Shown: positions 57,068 through 64,000 of the stretch, in pieces
Layout: each line of letters begins with the position of its first letter
How positions within the stretch are numbered: position 1 is the stretch's first letter
Assembly (NCBI RefSeq): GCF_947503415.1
Contig: NZ_CANNDS010000005.1
Coordinates: forward strand, 62,001-126,000
Direction: 5' to 3'
Length of the DNA stretch: 64,000 nucleotides
DNA from: an uncultured Tateyamaria sp.
GTDB taxonomy: Bacteria > Pseudomonadota > Alphaproteobacteria > Rhodobacterales > Rhodobacteraceae
Program-made: the position numbers and the translations under genes
The notes under the pieces: model-generated
Told to the model about the DNA's origin: nothing
What the model saw: only the letters and a program-made list of their open reading frames with translations
Databases searched by the model: none

Positions 57068-57372
57068 GGTGTTCTTTGGGGTATCGGGATTTTAACAGAT
57101 CTCTGAAACCACTCCGATTTCAATGGATTACGCAACGCACGGTCGGTTTTGCCGAAATTAACCAGCCGCGCGCGATGCTGCTGCCCGAGAGCGGGCGGCG
57201 CTGGTTTTTCCTTTGCGACGGATAATTTGGGGGGCGGTTCCATGCCTCGTGTCTGCGTTGTCACACGGCCAGAGCGTCTGCGACCCCTTGCTTGGAAACC
57301 AAATGGCACGTGTCGTACCGGTGCTCGCTTGCCAAGCAAAAACCCAAGCACCATAGTCGTCGAGAGATGTGC
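57068..57372. other. intergenic region before the secreted hydrolase gene
   Basis: No convincing gene is seen here. A short frame from about 57242 (MPRVCVVTRPERLRP...) lacks support and runs into the hydrolase gene. It contains the 8-bp inverted repeat TTGCTTGG (57288-57295) / CCAAGCAA (57332-57339), 33 nt before the hydrolase start, which could be an operator. Promoter boxes were not clear. Confidence 0.5.
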
Positions 57373-58923
57373 ATGTTTTTTCAACGACATGGCCCATGGG
57401 CCATCGGTTTGTCTCTGATCTTGACCCTGTTTCTGGCCGCCAAGGCCTGGGCTGACGCGGACCGGCGGGCTATGCTGGAAATGCCGGATGGCGTGCGACT
57501 GGAGACGTTCATCTATTTGCCGGATCAACAGCCATCACCGGTTGTCTTGATGCGCACGCCGTACCGGTTTCCCGCGCAAAGCGAAGCCTATTACGATGCT
57601 TTTGCGGATGAATTGACCCGCCGTGGATACACATTCGTGATGCAGAACCTGCGAGGCCGATTTGGATCGGAGGGTGTTTTTGATCCGTTCGAAAATGCAG
57701 TCGAGGACGGGGCCGCGACCGTGCGGTGGATCATGGCTCAGCCATGGTCAAATGGACGGATCGGGACCATTGGCGGGTCGTATAACGGATACACCGCGCT
57801 GGCCGCTGCCGCTGGTGCGCCGGAGGTGCAAGCCGTCATTGCGGACGATCCGGCGCTTGATCTGTGGGCAGGGCGCCGTGGCGACGCGGTGGGGTTGTTG
57901 CCCGTCCTGTGGCTGTACTTGCTGGATCATGGGCGGTGGCCGGATGAGGCCGAAAAGGAGCGGGCGAACAATGTCCGGGACCCAAGCCAGATCGACAACA
58001 GCCTTTTGGGTCGTGATGATCCATATTGGGACACCTACATCGCGGGCCGCACAGGCACCTCAGACAAGAGCCTGCGCGCTGATATTGACCGGATTTGCGC
58101 ACCCGTTCTGGTGATCAAATCCAAGAGCGAGGGGTGGGAGGATCCTGTTGATCTGTGGAAAGCATTGCGCCAGTCCGGGTGTCCGGAGCATCGCGCAGAT
58201 CACCAACTGATCGTCAGCGCCGAAGATCATACCTTTCACCTCAATCAGTTTGGCAAGGTCGAAACGGATGTGACCGCGCGGATCATTGCGTGGCTGGATC
58301 ATTGGTTGCGGGACGGGGACCTGACCGACACTGCGCCGGTTCTGTACCGCCCTGACGACGCCGAGCCGTTTCGAACAGCGGATGATTGGCCGATCAGGGG
58401 TGCTGAGACATCGTTCTACCTTGGGCGTCGTTTCAGCCTGACGGGCAATGCACCTTTGTTGGCGGCACCCGATGCCGGCATGAAGGTCCACGCCTTGCAG
58501 ATCGATCCGGCAAAGATGTCGCCCTGCGGCGATTACCCAAGCCAGACCTATCTGACAGCGCCGTTGGAGCGGGACATCCTTGTCGCAGGACCCATGCGCC
58601 TCGATCTGTTTGCGCGGGCGACAACGCCCATAGCCGGGTTCAGCGCGCAGGTGTACGATTATGATCCAGACCGCGCGGAACCACTGGAATTTGTTACGTT
58701 CGGCGTGACCCACGCCGAGGGGTTGGATGCCAGTCTGCCGGCGCGCCTGACCCTCGATATGCACTCTGTCAGTCATCGGTTCAAAGCAGGCACACGCATC
58801 GCCTTGTCGATTGGCGGCACGGCCTGTGGCTATGCTGAGGTGGACCATCCGGACGCCACGTACGAGATTTTGCACGGCACAAATGCGCCGTCCCGGCTGA
58901 TTATGGAGGCGGTGGCGGAATGA
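57373..58923 (+). CDS. secreted CocE/NonD-family hydrolase (S15 type)
   Basis: The 516-residue protein has a signal peptide (MFFQRHGPWAIGLSLILTLFLAAKAWADA) and the CocE/NonD alpha/beta hydrolase layout: DGVRLETFIYLP, VVLMRTPYRFP, QNLRGRFGSEG, the Ser nucleophile in GTIGGSYNGYTALAAA, and a C-terminal jelly-roll (GPMRLDLFARATTPIAGFSAQVYDYDP). Family members are acyl or peptide hydrolases such as cocaine esterase and cephalosporin acylases. ATG 57373 is chosen; ATG 57367 is just before it. The stop overlaps the Sfp start (ATGA). In this setting it might process the NRPS product outside the cytoplasm. Confidence 0.85.
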   Translation: MFFQRHGPWAIGLSLILTLFLAAKAWADADRRAMLEMPDGVRLETFIYLPDQQPSPVVLMRTPYRFPAQSEAYYDAFADELTRRGYTFVMQNLRGRFGSEGVFDPFENAVEDGAATVRWIMAQPWSNGRIGTIGGSYNGYTALAAAAGAPEVQAVIADDPALDLWAGRRGDAVGLLPVLWLYLLDHGRWPDEAEKERANNVRDPSQIDNSLLGRDDPYWDTYIAGRTGTSDKSLRADIDRICAPVLVIKSKSEGWEDPVDLWKALRQSGCPEHRADHQLIVSAEDHTFHLNQFGKVETDVTARIIAWLDHWLRDGDLTDTAPVLYRPDDAEPFRTADDWPIRGAETSFYLGRRFSLTGNAPLLAAPDAGMKVHALQIDPAKMSPCGDYPSQTYLTAPLERDILVAGPMRLDLFARATTPIAGFSAQVYDYDPDRAEPLEFVTFGVTHAEGLDASLPARLTLDMHSVSHRFKAGTRIALSIGGTACGYAEVDHPDATYEILHGTNAPSRLIMEAVAE

Positions 58924-59672
58924 CCGGGGTGGGGGCTTACAACACGATGCCGCTGGCGTCGGTCACGTCTCCCCAATCGGGAGAGGTGCATGTCTGGCAG
59001 GTGTCCCTGTCCACGTTGCGCGCCTCGGGCGATGGGTGGACCGGACTGAGCCCGGAGGAACAGGCGCGGTATCGCCGGTTTCGCCGTGATGAAGATGCGC
59101 ATCGATTTGCGGCCCGGCGCACGGCATTGCGGCATATTCTGTCGGCCTATCTGCAGTGTGACCTGGCAGAGGTTGCATATGAGACCATGGATGCTGCGGG
59201 CAAGCCGGTTTTGGCGCAGCCCCATCAGGGAGAGGTTGTGTTCAATGCCTCATCCTCTGCCGACATCGCCTTGATTGCGGTGGCGCAAGAGGGAACGATA
59301 GGTGTGGACGTTGAATATGCGCGGCCCTTTGAGGATATGGGCCAGATCGCGCGGCAGTACTTCACGGTGGATGAGGTCGCCCGGTTGGAGGCGCGACCGC
59401 CATCGCAGCGCTGTGATGCGTTTTATCGTCTCTGGACCTCGAAGGAGGCGCTCTTGAAGGCTGAGGGCGCGGGTCTGCCCGGTGGGTTGGACCGGTTCGA
59501 GGTGTCGTCCGATCCATCGCGTCCGCCTGAGCTGCTGGACGACGCTGCAGGTCCCGCACGGTTTCATCTGTATGCGGCTGATCCGGGCAACGGGTATTTT
59601 GGCGCCGTTGCAACGGATAGGCCGGACCTTAGCGTCTTGCACTTTGCCTTTGATCCCGGCGATCTGCGGTGA
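58920..59672 (+). CDS. 4'-phosphopantetheinyl transferase (Sfp type)
   Basis: The 250-residue enzyme attaches the phosphopantetheine arm of CoA to carrier proteins. Motifs are RFAARRTALRHIL, the Mg-binding IGVDVEYARP, and WTSKEALLKAEGAGLPGG. The Sfp type acts on NRPS peptidyl carrier domains, fitting the NRPS encoded on the opposite strand. It starts inside the hydrolase stop, and its 3' end overlaps the thioesterase gene by 44 nt in convergent orientation. Confidence 0.92.
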   Translation: MTGVGAYNTMPLASVTSPQSGEVHVWQVSLSTLRASGDGWTGLSPEEQARYRRFRRDEDAHRFAARRTALRHILSAYLQCDLAEVAYETMDAAGKPVLAQPHQGEVVFNASSSADIALIAVAQEGTIGVDVEYARPFEDMGQIARQYFTVDEVARLEARPPSQRCDAFYRLWTSKEALLKAEGAGLPGGLDRFEVSSDPSRPPELLDDAAGPARFHLYAADPGNGYFGAVATDRPDLSVLHFAFDPGDLR

Positions 59673-60420
59673 GCATCTGAACGTCGCGGTGCACTTGATC
59701 CAGTAGGGCGCTCGCATGATCCCGCAGATAAAAATGCCCGCCATCGAACATGGTGCGGGATGTGGGAGCGCTGGTGCAGGTGGCCCATGCCTCCAACGCG
59801 TCTGGCGGGGTGTCGCGGTCATCTTCTCCGGCGTAAACACAAATGGGTATGTCCAGCGGCGGCTCGGCCCGACATGTGTAGGTTTCGACCAGTTTAAAAT
59901 CGGCGCGCAGCAGCGGCAGTAGCAGGTCCATTAGCTCAGCATTGGCAAACACGTCTTTGGGCGTGCCGTCCAATGCGCCGACGGCCTGTTTGAAGTCGGC
60001 GTCTTGCAGGCCGTGGATCGGCGGGCGTGTGTCGGGCAGATGCGGGCCGCCATAGCCTGACACCAGCAGGGCCTCTGGCTGGCGCAATCCGAGACGGCGC
60101 AGGGCGCGCGCAAGCTCGAAGCTGATGAGCGCGCCCATGGAATGGCCGAACAGCACAAATGGCCGGTCCAGATACCCTGCGATGCCCTTGGCGGTTTGTG
60201 TTGCCAGCTCTTGAACGGTGTCGATGGGCCGCTCCGACAGGCGCCGCTCGCGACCGGGCAGATGCACCGGCCAAACCTCCGCGGTTGTTCTGAGCGCTGA
60301 TGGCCAACCCCGGTAGATCGATGCCCCGGCGCCAGCGTAAGGCAGGCAGAACATCCGGCAGCCGGCGCTTGGGTCTGGCATCGGGCAGCTTGCCCAGGCG
60401 GGTTTTGCCGATGCGCGCAT
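59629..60420 (-). CDS. type II thioesterase
   Basis: The 263-residue alpha/beta hydrolase is an external thioesterase that edits stalled carrier proteins or releases products. It has MFCLPYAGAGASIYRGW, the Ser nucleophile in FGHSMGALISFELARAL, an Asp in VYAGEDDRDTP and the His in FDGGHFYLRDH. It is the last gene of the minus-strand NRPS operon, 5 nt after mbtH. A proofreading role is inferred from family. Confidence 0.9.
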   Translation of the reverse strand: MRASAKPAWASCPMPDPSAGCRMFCLPYAGAGASIYRGWPSALRTTAEVWPVHLPGRERRLSERPIDTVQELATQTAKGIAGYLDRPFVLFGHSMGALISFELARALRRLGLRQPEALLVSGYGGPHLPDTRPPIHGLQDADFKQAVGALDGTPKDVFANAELMDLLLPLLRADFKLVETYTCRAEPPLDIPICVYAGEDDRDTPPDALEAWATCTSAPTSRTMFDGGHFYLRDHASALLDQVHRDVQMLTADRRDQRQSARR

Positions 60421-60425
60421 GGGCG

Positions 60426-60644
60426 TCAGGTGGTCCCTTGCTGTTCCGCCTCTTCCATCGCGTTGCGCAAGGACAGCGGGCGCATATCAGTCCAGACTTC
60501 CTCTATGTAGTCCAGTGCGTCCTCCTTGGATTTGCCTTCGGTGACGGCTTTCCAACCAATTGGCAGCTCCCGGTCCACGGGCCAGATTGAATACTGCTCT
60601 TCGTGGTTGACCACGACGCTGTAGAGTGTGTCATCTTCGGCCAT
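60426..60644 (-). CDS. MbtH-like protein
   Basis: The 72-residue protein has the MbtH signature [19 protein letters not shown] and [23 protein letters not shown]. MbtH-like proteins bind NRPS adenylation domains and allow their folding or activity. AAGGAG lies 10 nt before the ATG. Its presence indicates that the upstream adenylation domain may be MbtH-dependent. Confidence 0.95.
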
Positions 60645-60659
60645 TACGCGCGTTCTCCT

Positions 60660-61535
60660 TTATGCATCGTCTACCCAATCCTCATCTTGCAACCTGCGGC
60701 GGCAGCGTAGGCACGCGCCGTCTGCCCTGTCCTCAAAGACCTCGATTTCAGCGTCCTTGGCGTTTTCACCCGCGTTCAGGTTGAACCGAAGCCCGTCGTC
60801 GTCTTCGATCCACCCCGCCTTGGTGAAGATGCGCAACATGCCATCGTCGCTGTCGGCCTCATCGGTGGTGGATGCGGCTCTGGTCTGGGCGGCACCGTCA
60901 CCATTCATGCCTTCGATGGCGAACTGAGCGGTGATGGTCGGCTCTTCTTCGGGTTTTGCGGCCATGCGTGCCGCGATGGTAGGTCGCTCAGAAACCTTCT
61001 TGACCTTGAATAGCGCCGGTTCCGGGTGCGCCCCATCCGGTTTGTCCGTCAGCTTTGCGTCCACCGAGGCTGCCATCTCGTGCAGATCCTGCGTCGGGTT
61101 TTCTTGCGAAATGCGGTGCAGGCTGTTGCCGCGCAGAAATGCGACCGTCCGGTCATCGGGTGTAACAAAGCCCACGTCGCCCACGCCTTCGGTTGTCGTT
61201 TGCAGATCAACGGGCACGTGGAATTCACCCAGAAAACTCCACAGCGCCTGTTCTGCTTCAGCAAAGCTGCCATATTCGAAACTGTCGACCAGCACCGGGT
61301 TTTCTTCGGGCGCCTTGCGCGGCGCGCGGTCTTCGGTCAGCCATGTTGTCTTGCGCATCCGACCACCGCTTGGCAGGTTGAGCGTCAGCGCGCGTTTGAT
61401 ATGGGCGCGGACAATTTCCTGACCCAGCATCCGATACCGCCGCACAAAGAAACCGCTTTGATGTCGGGCCTGAAACAGTCGTTCATCGATGCCGTATTTG
61501 CTGCGAAGTGCGTTGATCTGGGTTGGCAACAGCAT
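60660..61535 (-). CDS. unrecognised protein in the NRPS operon
   Basis: The 291-residue protein (MLLPTQINALRSKYGIDERLFQARHQ ...) has no domain I can name. The N-terminal third is basic with several Arg pairs (FFVRRYRMLGQEIVRAHIKRALTLNLPSGGRMRK). The middle is acidic, and the C-terminus carries one CxxC pair (GACLRCRRRLQDEDW). AAGGTGATC before ATG 61535 supports that start. It is 15 nt from mbtH and 20 nt from the transglutaminase-like gene, so it belongs to the NRPS operon. Role unknown. Confidence 0.75.
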   Translation of the reverse strand: MLLPTQINALRSKYGIDERLFQARHQSGFFVRRYRMLGQEIVRAHIKRALTLNLPSGGRMRKTTWLTEDRAPRKAPEENPVLVDSFEYGSFAEAEQALWSFLGEFHVPVDLQTTTEGVGDVGFVTPDDRTVAFLRGNSLHRISQENPTQDLHEMAASVDAKLTDKPDGAHPEPALFKVKKVSERPTIAARMAAKPEEEPTITAQFAIEGMNGDGAAQTRAASTTDEADSDDGMLRIFTKAGWIEDDDGLRFNLNAGENAKDAEIEVFEDRADGACLRCRRRLQDEDWVDDA

Positions 61536-61555
61536 GAGATCACCTTTTGGCGGGT

Positions 61556-62695
61556 TTAATAGACGAGGCGGCGGCGTCTTGTGGTTGGCTGCGCCTGACA
61601 AATGTACCTGGATTCGGGACTGACCAGGAAATCACGGTAACTGCTGGCGTAGGACCAGCCGAAATTGATGTCCGATGGCATGAAGGCCGAAAGGCCCACG
61701 GATGGCGGAGCCGGGAAAAACACCGCCACACACGCGTCATACACCTCGTCCAGATCGGAACAGGCACCTTCCCATGCGACCTCGTGATAGTTGAAGAACC
61801 CGGTGCCGCAGACCGGGCCAAAGAAGGGCGCGCCGATCGGGCGCATCAGGTTGCAGCGGAAGGGCACGATCTGATTGAACATCCGGGACTGCCAGAGATC
61901 CGCGCCGAGGACATTGGCAAAGGTCGACACGATCGTAGCACAGTCGGTGCAATTGACCCGGGGACCACGACCATATTCCCCTGCAAGCCGTTCAAGAAAC
62001 GCCGAGCAATCGAATTCGGGAAAGGAATAGTTCGTCGGATTTCCCCCTCGGCAATCGTAAGCAACCCGGCGTGGTCCGAGGTTGTAGACGGCTGCGGTAA
62101 TTGCGGTAGCCGCCGCGTCCGGTGTGTGCGTGAAGGCGGCCCATCGGCAGGCCCATTCCAGCACTTCGGCCCAAGGCAACTGCGTGTTGGCCGCGGTGAA
62201 CGGCGTCTGCACCCACGGCCGTGTTGGTTGGCGCAAGATCACGTAAATGCGGTGCCGCGTCGTTTCAAAATCGTTCCATGGTCCGGCAAAGCTTTCCTTG
62301 TATTGCCAGGTCCAGTTCACGTCGAATGCGCCCACGCCGGTTTGCACCAATGCCGGGGCTTGCAGCGTCAGTCGCAGGCCATTGCGTTTGCCGTTTGCGG
62401 CAAAGTTGACCGTCGCGGTTTCGGTCGGACCCAGAATGTTGAACTCCAACGGGTTGGTCGGAACCGCCCGTACAAAAACGCGCGTGTTGGAGGGGCCAAG
62501 CAGATCGATTGCAACGTCGATCCGGGCGCTTAGTGCGTCCGAGATGGCGTAGGCGGCAGGGAACACCTCCGGGTCGCCCTTTATCCATTCGGGGACACGG
62601 CCCGGGTCGCTGCCGTTCCGGCGAATGTTCAGTGCGCCCCGGCGGGAGGATGCAGGATCGTGGTTGAAGGTGATGCTTGCCAGTGTGACGGTCAT
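61556..62695 (-). CDS. transglutaminase-like protein coupled to NRPS
   Basis: The 379-residue protein has an N-terminal beta-rich region (about residues 1-155) and a C-terminal region with a transglutaminase-like triad: Cys249 in RGPRVNCTDCATIVSTFANVLGADLW, His304 in FFNYHEVAWEG and Asp320 in LDEVYDACV. The spacing C-x-D-x-A and His to Asp of 16 fits the transglutaminase core. No signal peptide. The start overlaps the NRPS stop (ATGA). Amide formation or chain release is possible, as for AdmF in andrimid synthesis. Homology is inferred by eye. Confidence 0.65.
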   Translation of the reverse strand: MTVTLASITFNHDPASSRRGALNIRRNGSDPGRVPEWIKGDPEVFPAAYAISDALSARIDVAIDLLGPSNTRVFVRAVPTNPLEFNILGPTETATVNFAANGKRNGLRLTLQAPALVQTGVGAFDVNWTWQYKESFAGPWNDFETTRHRIYVILRQPTRPWVQTPFTAANTQLPWAEVLEWACRWAAFTHTPDAAATAITAAVYNLGPRRVAYDCRGGNPTNYSFPEFDCSAFLERLAGEYGRGPRVNCTDCATIVSTFANVLGADLWQSRMFNQIVPFRCNLMRPIGAPFFGPVCGTGFFNYHEVAWEGACSDLDEVYDACVAVFFPAPPSVGLSAFMPSDINFGWSYASSYRDFLVSPESRYICQAQPTTRRRRLVY

Positions 62696-64000
62696 GCGCC
62701 TGTTGTCCGTTTGCGTTGGCGCGCAGTGCGCGAGATTGGTTTGATGCCGCCTTGTCGGGACGGTGTGGATGGAGCTTCGGTGGGATCTGGTGATTGAGCC
62801 TGCGCGTCTGTGGTGTCATCCGCGTCAATGATGCGGGCAAGGCCCTCCACTGTGGGGTTCTCGAAAACGGTGCGCAGGGCAAGGTCGACGCCAAGGTCGC
62901 GTTTGATCCGCGAGGCAAGCTGCGTCACCCGCAGTGAATGGCCACCGATGTCGAAGAAATTGTCCGTCCGTTCAAAGTCATCCCGTTCAAGAACGGCGGC
63001 CCAAATTTGCGCCAGTTTCTCCTCGGTAGAGCCTTTGGGTGTGTCCTGCGCTGCGGTTCTTGATGTGGGTTTGGCGGGTTTTGTGCGCGGCTCGGGAAGG
63101 GCTGCGCGGTCAATCTTGCCGTTTCGGTTGAGCGGCAGGGTGTCCAGGTGCACGATGGTCTCTGGCAGCGCGTAGGATGGCATGGTCTTGGCCAAGGCCG
63201 ATGTGAGTTTGTTGCTCAGGTCGTCCGGGGCATCGCTGGCAGGCACGACATAGGCGAGGATGCGTCGCGCTTCTCCCTCTCCCTTGCAGACGACCACGGC
63301 CTGAGCCACGGAAGGCTCCGCCAGCAGCAATGCCTCGATCTCGCTCAGCTCGATCCGGTAGCCGCGCAGTTTGATTTGCGTGTCGATCCGTTCAAGGAAT
63401 ACGATGCGCCCCTCGGCGTCCTGAAGTACCCGGTCGCCAGTGCGGTAGAGCCGCGCGCCGGGTGTGTCGGAGTAGGGATCAGGCAGAAACGACTGTGCTG
63501 TCAGTGCAGCCCGGCCCGCATAGCCGTGCGCCAGGCCGTCGCCACCAAGGTAGAGCTCTCCCGGTGCCCCCTGCGGGACCGGGCGCAGTTGCCTGTCCAA
63601 CACATATGCTGATGTGTGGCCGATGGCATGTCCGATGGGCGGTGCAATCTGGTCGGGTTCGATCGTGGTCAGGTGCTGCCACGTGGCAAAGGTCGTGCTT
63701 TCGGTCGGGCCGTAGACATGCAGCAACCGCTTTGGTCCGCGCCCATTCAGCACGGCACGGACGGCTTGCAGATCAGCGGCCTCACCGCCGAACATCAGCG
63801 TGTCGAGGCTTTGGAATGCGTCGGTACGTTCTGCCGCGATGCGATTGAACAAGGCCGTGGTCAGGAACATCGTGGTGATACGCTTGGCGTCCAATGCGAG
63901 GGCCAGTGCATCGGGTGACAGCACCGTGTCCCTGTCCAGCGCGACCGTCGTGCCGCCATTCAGTAAAGCGCCCCAGATTTCGAACGTGGCGGCGTCGAAG
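62692..64000 (-). CDS. non-ribosomal peptide synthetase (partial, 5' end outside window)
   Basis: About 435 C-terminal residues are visible. They comprise an adenylation domain from FDAATFEIWGALLNGG (beyond the first Met in this frame) through LMFGGEAAD, HVYGPTESTTFATW, GELYLGGDGLAHGY, YRTGDRV and NRNGKIDRAALP, then a carrier domain DNFFDIGGHSLRVTQLASR with the modified Ser. A Pro/Ser/Thr-rich tail of about 40 residues ends in GGIKPISRTARQRKRTTGA. No thioesterase or condensation domain follows. The gene continues past the window edge. The substrate is not predicted with confidence. Confidence 0.93.
   Translation of the reverse strand, partial: FDAATFEIWGALLNGGTTVALDRDTVLSPDALALALDAKRITTMFLTTALFNRIAAERTDAFQSLDTLMFGGEAADLQAVRAVLNGRGPKRLLHVYGPTESTTFATWQHLTTIEPDQIAPPIGHAIGHTSAYVLDRQLRPVPQGAPGELYLGGDGLAHGYAGRAALTAQSFLPDPYSDTPGARLYRTGDRVLQDAEGRIVFLERIDTQIKLRGYRIELSEIEALLLAEPSVAQAVVVCKGEGEARRILAYVVPASDAPDDLSNKLTSALAKTMPSYALPETIVHLDTLPLNRNGKIDRAALPEPRTKPAKPTSRTAAQDTPKGSTEEKLAQIWAAVLERDDFERTDNFFDIGGHSLRVTQLASRIKRDLGVDLALRTVFENPTVEGLARIIDADDTTDAQAQSPDPTEAPSTPSRQGGIKPISRTARQRKRTTGA

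Follow-up and report, generated by a model that had tools for sequence, protein, structure and literature searches.

A transglutaminase-like protein and its companion at the end of a thioesterase-less peptide synthetase cluster in an uncultured Tateyamaria sp.

The window analysed here is a stretch of 64,000 nucleotides from an uncultured Tateyamaria sp. (positions 62001-126000 of contig NZ_CANNDS010000005.1, here called C5, in a genome of 4.87 Mb). Its right end holds part of a gene cluster for a non-ribosomal peptide synthetase (NRPS), an assignment that is clear from the ordered modules of condensation (C), adenylation (A) and peptidyl carrier protein (PCP) domains together with an Sfp-type transferase and an MbtH-like protein. 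The synthetase ends without a thioesterase (TE) domain. On the minus strand the gene of its last subunit, NrpsE, overlaps by 4 nt that of a 379-residue transglutaminase-like protein (TG), which is followed after 20 nt by the gene of a 291-residue partner protein, after a further 15 nt by the MbtH gene and after 5 nt by the gene of a stand-alone TE. By analogy with AdmF of the andrimid system, TG and its partner may act on the peptide by acyl transfer, most likely releasing it in an amine-dependent way, a reading to which a probability of roughly 0.4 is given. How TE-less NRPSs set their peptide free is a question that keeps returning, and enzymes of the TG type (the andrimid class) are one of its rarely met answers.

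The end of the synthetase and related clusters

The gene set, the positions, the spacings and the convergent Sfp and hydrolase genes are all as given in the first-pass annotation, made from the window sequence. The A-PCP end of an NRPS that it described is present at the window edge, but the NRPS extends upstream to C5:141740 and consists of four proteins; the minus-strand operon continues 18 kb past the window. Pfam matches and motif reading gave the domain orders C-A-MT-PCP, C-A-PCP, C-A-MT-PCP-E and C-A-PCP for the four proteins, where MT is methyltransferase and E epimerisation. The Pfam scan of all four subunits found no TE or reductase domain and no terminal C domain for release, so that the lack of an integrated TE supposed earlier holds also where a TE in another subunit was sought. 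The PCP of NrpsE occupies residues 973-1036 of 1081, at the end of the last subunit. From some TE-less NRPSs the peptide is released by a reductase, a terminal C domain or partner enzymes. As in these systems, the last module here ends in a PCP; in contrast to the others it has neither a reductase nor a terminal C domain, and the candidates are TG and the type II TE.

Five Condensation matches were found genome-wide, every one of them within the cluster. The last domain of NrpsD matches Pfam Condensation but is read as an epimerisation domain because of the motifs HHLVVDGVSW and EGHGRE, which are typical of such domains, and because it stands behind a GGDS carrier motif. The C domain of NrpsE, of the SPMQxGMLFH kind, is presumably a DCL domain. 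Both MT inserts contain the G-x-G-x-G motif for S-adenosylmethionine (SAM). The first C domain, that of NrpsB, has no carrier ahead of it in the operon; an acyl starter on the peptide is therefore possible.

The pocket codes of the A domains are DAWQFGLIQK (NrpsB), VDWLFSLGDK (NrpsC), DALWLGGTFK (NrpsD) and DAFFMGVTFK (NrpsE), with the final K set by convention; the NGKxDR lysine motif was found in all four proteins. The codes of NrpsD and NrpsE are read as Val-like and Ile-like. That of NrpsC resembles the beta-alanine code, in a form not found in print, and its substrate is perhaps a beta-amino acid. Beta-type A domains are described with other features in the review PMC11253843, and none of the codes sought occurs in PMC12283262. 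DAWQFGLI is a glutamine code, by which NrpsB is predicted to activate glutamine: DAWQFGLIDK is the entry of a domain whose Gln specificity is known (tyroc003; PMC2866473, Table 2) and DAWQFGLINK is given as the L-Gln signature (PMC3992020). The peptide appears to contain glutamine.

A scan of genome contigs for TG gave six loci. One, in a metagenome-assembled genome (MAG) of Amaricoccus, is colinear with the window cluster: the peptidase, NrpsB, C, D and E and TG are all there, as is the beginning of the partner gene, and identity runs at 57-63% from the peptidase (itself 57%) through TG; the TG match begins 14 nt past the NrpsE match. The contig terminates within the partner gene (37% identity over 107 residues) and stops short of the hydrolase side of the cluster. 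The Amaricoccus pocket codes equal the four of the window except at one position, the Gln-type code being DAWQFGLIEK, and a homologue of the helical-looking protein, about 200 aa, lies ahead of the peptidase (L029:19323-19919). The third cluster belongs to an actinobacterial MAG. One contig carries a C-A-MT-PCP module with the Gln-type code DAWQFGLIDK, 45% identical to NrpsB, and another carries a module with DAFWLGGTFK followed by a last C-A-PCP module with VDWWVTVDAK, which contains a frame break and lacks a TE. Partner and TG lie beside this NRPS end in convergent orientation. The Gln contig is joined to the TG contig only via an exact 147-bp overlap of their ends. The association with NRPSs proposed earlier is borne out in that the pair adjoins a TE-less NRPS end in all three clusters found, each with a Gln-type A domain (in the third case via the contig-end overlap). 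The three clusters are probably related by descent and are not counted as independent events.

The transglutaminase-like family and its partner

Neither TG nor its partner matches any Pfam or NCBIfam family. The earlier label of TG as transglutaminase-like, at that stage a guess from the letters, has nevertheless a basis in a fold match, a profile comparison controlled by column shuffling and motif conservation; together these suggest that TG likely has a transglutaminase-type fold and likely belongs to the superfamily, even without a match to PF01841.

A conserved triad, needed for the earlier label, was found in distant relatives. The TG alignment comprises 31 of the 38 loci (L033, L034, L037, L046, L054, L061 and L062, truncated, partial or weak, were left out). 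Cys249 and Asp251 are present in 31/31 rows, and His304 in 24/24 and Asp320 in 25/25 of the rows with letters at those positions. Cys249, His304 and Asp320 are the putative catalytic triad. The seven rows gapped at His304 are part of a more divergent group, six of which lack the second Cys of NCxDC. In their frames H...DA[TC] follows, by eye, further on (for example NHGWARVDGTIYDATVG), which looks more like ordinary Transglut_core proteins. A tree of 16 complete catalytic regions placed the three NRPS-linked TGs together with a support of 0.945.

When the TG profile was first compared with a narrow set of Transglut_core proteins, nothing was returned. In the second comparison, which used 24 of the 30 Transglut_core loci fetched and widened the TG query, NCTDCA of TG was aligned with VCQDHA, Cys249 falling on the catalytic Cys, at a score of 23.9. 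None of 300 column shuffles reached this score: they were made as two sets of 150, whose best scores were 21.05 and 20.6. The narrower TG query scored 15.6 against the set.

The predicted model of TG has an N-terminal beta-sandwich and a helix that starts at Cys249, and is reliable only for the sandwich and some helices to about residue 263. Structure prediction had been suggested earlier for both proteins. For TG it gave, with low confidence, transglutaminase 3 as the top Foldseek match (E 3.6e-5, template modelling (TM) score 0.30, 12% identity), while the AlphaFold model of the partner (mean predicted local distance difference test (pLDDT) 52) had no significant Foldseek match. The partner profile gave weak matches to PDB entries in its C-terminal part, best E 0.0052, with antibody chains among them.

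The partner had been called an orphan, a description that no longer applies: with a profile iterated over the loci fetched, 31 of the 38, that of the window among them, have it downstream of TG and in the same orientation. The loci without a partner domain are L033, L036, L037, L049, L054, L061 and L062, with less than 400 nt of DNA left in L037 and L049. The first partner profile had one match in each of seven TG genomes, six of which had rows in the profile and one, Amaricoccus, none. Iteration raised the number of loci with a partner in the Brocadia (planctomycete) phylum from 13/29 to 23/29. The partner alignment covers 25 of the 31 loci (L009, L045, L046, L055, L056 and L063 were left out as truncated, partial or weak). 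The partner is a regular companion of TG, and its function would most simply concern TG. L033 (contig C88, one MAG) is a second, more divergent TG copy with no partner behind it.

A genome was counted as having TG if it gave a match at E <= 0.001, and each count includes the query genome. It occurs in 1/61 relatives, 1/385 genomes of the class and 1/295 of the family, in 1/246 of the phylum of the actinobacterial MAG and 2/148 of that of a Nitrospirae MAG, and in 29/294 of the Brocadia phylum, where some matches are weak. The Brocadia phylum contributes 29 of the 38 loci, a set outside which four of its weak matches fall. In the class, family and phylum searches only the best 5-7 candidates were scored in many genomes, and rare misses of TG are therefore possible. 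The plasmid collection gave no TG match.

Six of eight TG-bearing genomes searched had no Condensation match. For most TGs of the Brocadia phylum (L035-L063) the frame is 490-840 residues long and the partner gene comes next, and the six loci listed have no constant further neighbour of the pair. Many TG relatives are extended at the N-terminus and begin with a hydrophobic, signal-like stretch, as seen in a crude scan of stop-to-stop frames, too noisy for concordance counts between TG and partner; the TG of the window has no signal-like N-terminus. The pairs of the Brocadia phylum and elsewhere thus share the two-gene order and the conserved residues with the window pair and differ from it in their many signal-like N-termini and in the lack of Condensation matches mentioned above.

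In a Brocadia locus (L012:2811-8991) and a Nitrospirota locus (L065:2635-6726) the DNA upstream of the pair encodes peptide-maturase-type radical SAM proteins, with scores short of the NCBIfam cut-offs, in L065 together with a C39-like peptidase; both are perhaps a ribosomal-peptide setting. In the Nitrospirae MAG two consecutive genes with an FSGRxNP/FSGRPDP motif stand immediately ahead of TG (L010:7966-9171), the larger of which has no Pfam family.

The family escapes the Pfam models, has a regular companion and is spread over several phyla, and the pair is a search handle for more such clusters. A wider interpretation, rather doubtful as yet, is that a two-gene TG module that has no name in Pfam and is common in the Brocadia phylum was recruited to NRPS lines, where it would act on a peptide Gln or a thioester as a new finishing or cross-linking route; in Brocadia and Nitrospirota its substrates might include ribosomal peptides.

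Proposed release of the peptide and competing explanations

The cluster would make a short N-methylated peptide in the module order C-A(Gln)-MT-PCP, C-A(perhaps beta-amino acid)-PCP, C-A(Val-like)-MT-PCP-E and C-A(Ile-like)-PCP. Sfp would prime the carriers, MbtH would assist and the type II TE would clear the line, which are the established roles of these families. On the AdmF analogy TG would then stand in for a TE: its Cys249 would accept the peptidyl chain that the last PCP carries, and the acyl-enzyme would pass the peptide to an amine. Release or cross-linking of the peptide by the pair, as proposed earlier, is likewise putative and drawn from AdmF. The partner would presumably attach to TG and shape or protect its active site. 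The pair would have been recruited from a family often with signal-like N-termini and, in most of the genomes tested (6/8), without an NRPS.

AdmF, the transglutaminase homologue of andrimid, is reportedly a condensation catalyst, to go by the title of a 2007 paper of Fortin, Walsh and Magarvey. As with AdmF and the TG-like gene of butuanimide, a transglutaminase homologue is here encoded with a modular synthase, and a beta-amino acid may be used as in andrimid-class systems. Unlike the AdmF case, the NRPS is linear with four modules, and its last subunit is succeeded by TG, which also has an N-terminal domain of its own and a companion protein and is missed by Pfam Transglut_core. TG is likened to AdmF by description and not by sequence. 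The label 'transglutaminase (TG)-like' occurs in a figure legend of PMC13151354. No paper seen in a search of open-licence full texts, MIBiG not included, assigns a product to the NRPS-TG-partner gene set, so that a product may already be known. The same texts contain nothing that joins TG, NRPS and AdmF, or TG-like, release and TE, or stand-alone TG and NRPS. Among the titles listed, none concerns a TG-like gene in a non-ribosomal peptide cluster of this sort or the pair in planctomycetes or with sedolisin, and for NRPS with kumamolisin the one title was that of a soil study.

A PCP thioester as donor is favoured by the absence of a TE and by the coupling of the TG gene to the last NRPS gene, and the side chain of glutamine by the constancy of Gln and by the relatives without NRPS. 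Release from the PCP is preferred by a small margin.

Several results count against amine-dependent release by a transglutaminase-type enzyme. Only one of 31 TG members matched PF01841 Transglut_core in the Pfam scan, and weakly (E 0.063); TG matched no PDB sequence; most of the catalytic region has a pLDDT below 50; and hhalign gave probabilities of 0.1, 8.3 and 0.5 in three tries, 8.3 being that of the comparison with score 23.9. Although TG is predicted to resemble the animal-type transglutaminases TG2 and TG3 in having a beta-sandwich and then a Cys-His-Asp core, the similarity is low (TM only 0.30 for the best match, 12% identity) and the core is of low confidence. The last residue, moreover, varies between an Ile-like code in the window and a V-D type code in the actinobacterial cluster while Gln is constant, a pattern that speaks for the side chain of Gln as the target. 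The chain could, besides, be freed by hydrolysis or by the type II TE.

A close rival, quite possible if still not probable, is that TG is a true transglutaminase that attacks the side-chain amide of a peptide Gln and joins it to an amine or deamidates it, the peptide being released by another route. The products could be a closed ring, a dimer or a conjugate with a small amine or a protein lysine. Gln-type codes beside TG in 3/3 NRPS clusters (DAWQFGLIQK, DAWQFGLIEK and DAWQFGLIDK) agree with this, as does the absence of Condensation from most TG genomes searched, which makes a PCP thioester an unlikely usual substrate of the family. The clusters are related, however, as the 45% identity of NrpsB with the actinobacterial module indicates, and the Gln may simply have been inherited; the actinobacterial Gln contig is tied to the TG contig by the 147-bp overlap alone, and release would go without an explanation. 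The constant Gln module of the three clusters offers a direct test of whether the chain end or glutamine is the target.

Release by the type II TE or by spontaneous hydrolysis, with TG and partner serving to tailor the peptide, to protect the host or in some other function that does not involve the chain, is unlikely. The operon does include a stand-alone TE and the pair does occur without an NRPS in most of the genomes tested, but type II TEs normally strip mis-primed carriers, and the pair has been kept beside TE-less NRPS ends in three clusters, one of them distant and with the opposite gene orientation. Least probable is an inactive or hydrolytic TG, a peptidase or amidase that would trim the peptide jointly with the secreted hydrolase and the S53-type peptidase: superfamily peptidases also use a Cys-His-Asp triad and the peptidase gene near the operon start has S53-like motifs (E-x3-D, D and GTSA), but TG has no signal sequence and its coupling to the last NRPS gene fits chain handling equally well or better.

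The locus and its insertion site

The block from the hydrolase to the helical-looking protein (Table 1) is inserted between sufS on the left and a 5'-nucleotidase gene, and the inserted cluster measures about 25-26 kb. The secreted hydrolase, which may trim the peptide after export as proposed earlier, belongs to this block. sufS is present in 20/20 genomes of the genus, that of the window included. In 12 of the 19 other congeners the 20 kb behind sufS were compared at a cut-off of E 1e-10, and the genes of the hydrolase, Sfp, TE, MbtH, partner, TG, peptidase and helical-looking protein and the A domain of NrpsC were found in 0/12. The hydrolase and Sfp genes therefore either arrived as part of the block or were added to it where it was inserted. 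The 5'-nucleotidase gene lies 0.2-2.8 kb from sufS in 7/12 congeners; one of the others has genes from beyond the 5'-nucleotidase, and four have no right flank within 20 kb.

Table 1. Features of the cluster, in window positions unless C5 is given.
Feature	Position	Strand	Family matches and remarks
CocE/NonD-type (CocE/S15) alpha/beta hydrolase, signal-like N-terminus	57373..58923	+	PF02129 + PF08530
Sfp-like 4'-phosphopantetheinyl transferase	58920..59672	+, convergent with operon	PF01648
Stand-alone thioesterase, type II by position	59629..60420	-	PF00975
MbtH-like protein	60426..60644	-	PF03621
Partner, 291 aa, ATG at 61535	60660..61535	-	No Pfam family
TG, 379 aa, transglutaminase-like; beta-sandwich N-terminal and catalytic region (predicted); Cys249, His304, Asp320	61556..62695	-	
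NrpsE C-terminal part, A + AMP-binding_C + PCP, 435 residues	62692..64000	-	Pfam
NrpsE whole, C-A-PCP, 1081 aa	C5:124692-127937 (right end 65937 in window numbering)	-	
NrpsD, 2000 aa, C-A-MT-PCP-E	C5:127940-133942	-	
NrpsC, 1100 aa, C-A-PCP	C5:133957-137259	-	
NrpsB, 1494 aa, C-A-MT-PCP	C5:137256-141740	-	
S53-type peptidase, 645 aa	C5:141737-143674 (L007:7738-9675)	-	Pro-kumamolisin + Peptidase_S8 matches
Helical-looking protein, 201 aa	C5:143722-144327	-	No Pfam match over cut-off

A reading of the helical-looking protein as a phasin had an E of 0.022, which misses the cut-off, and is not claimed. An alternative ATG start of the hydrolase lies at 57367. In the S53-type peptidase the pro-domain is followed by a long helical-looking stretch and then by the catalytic part.

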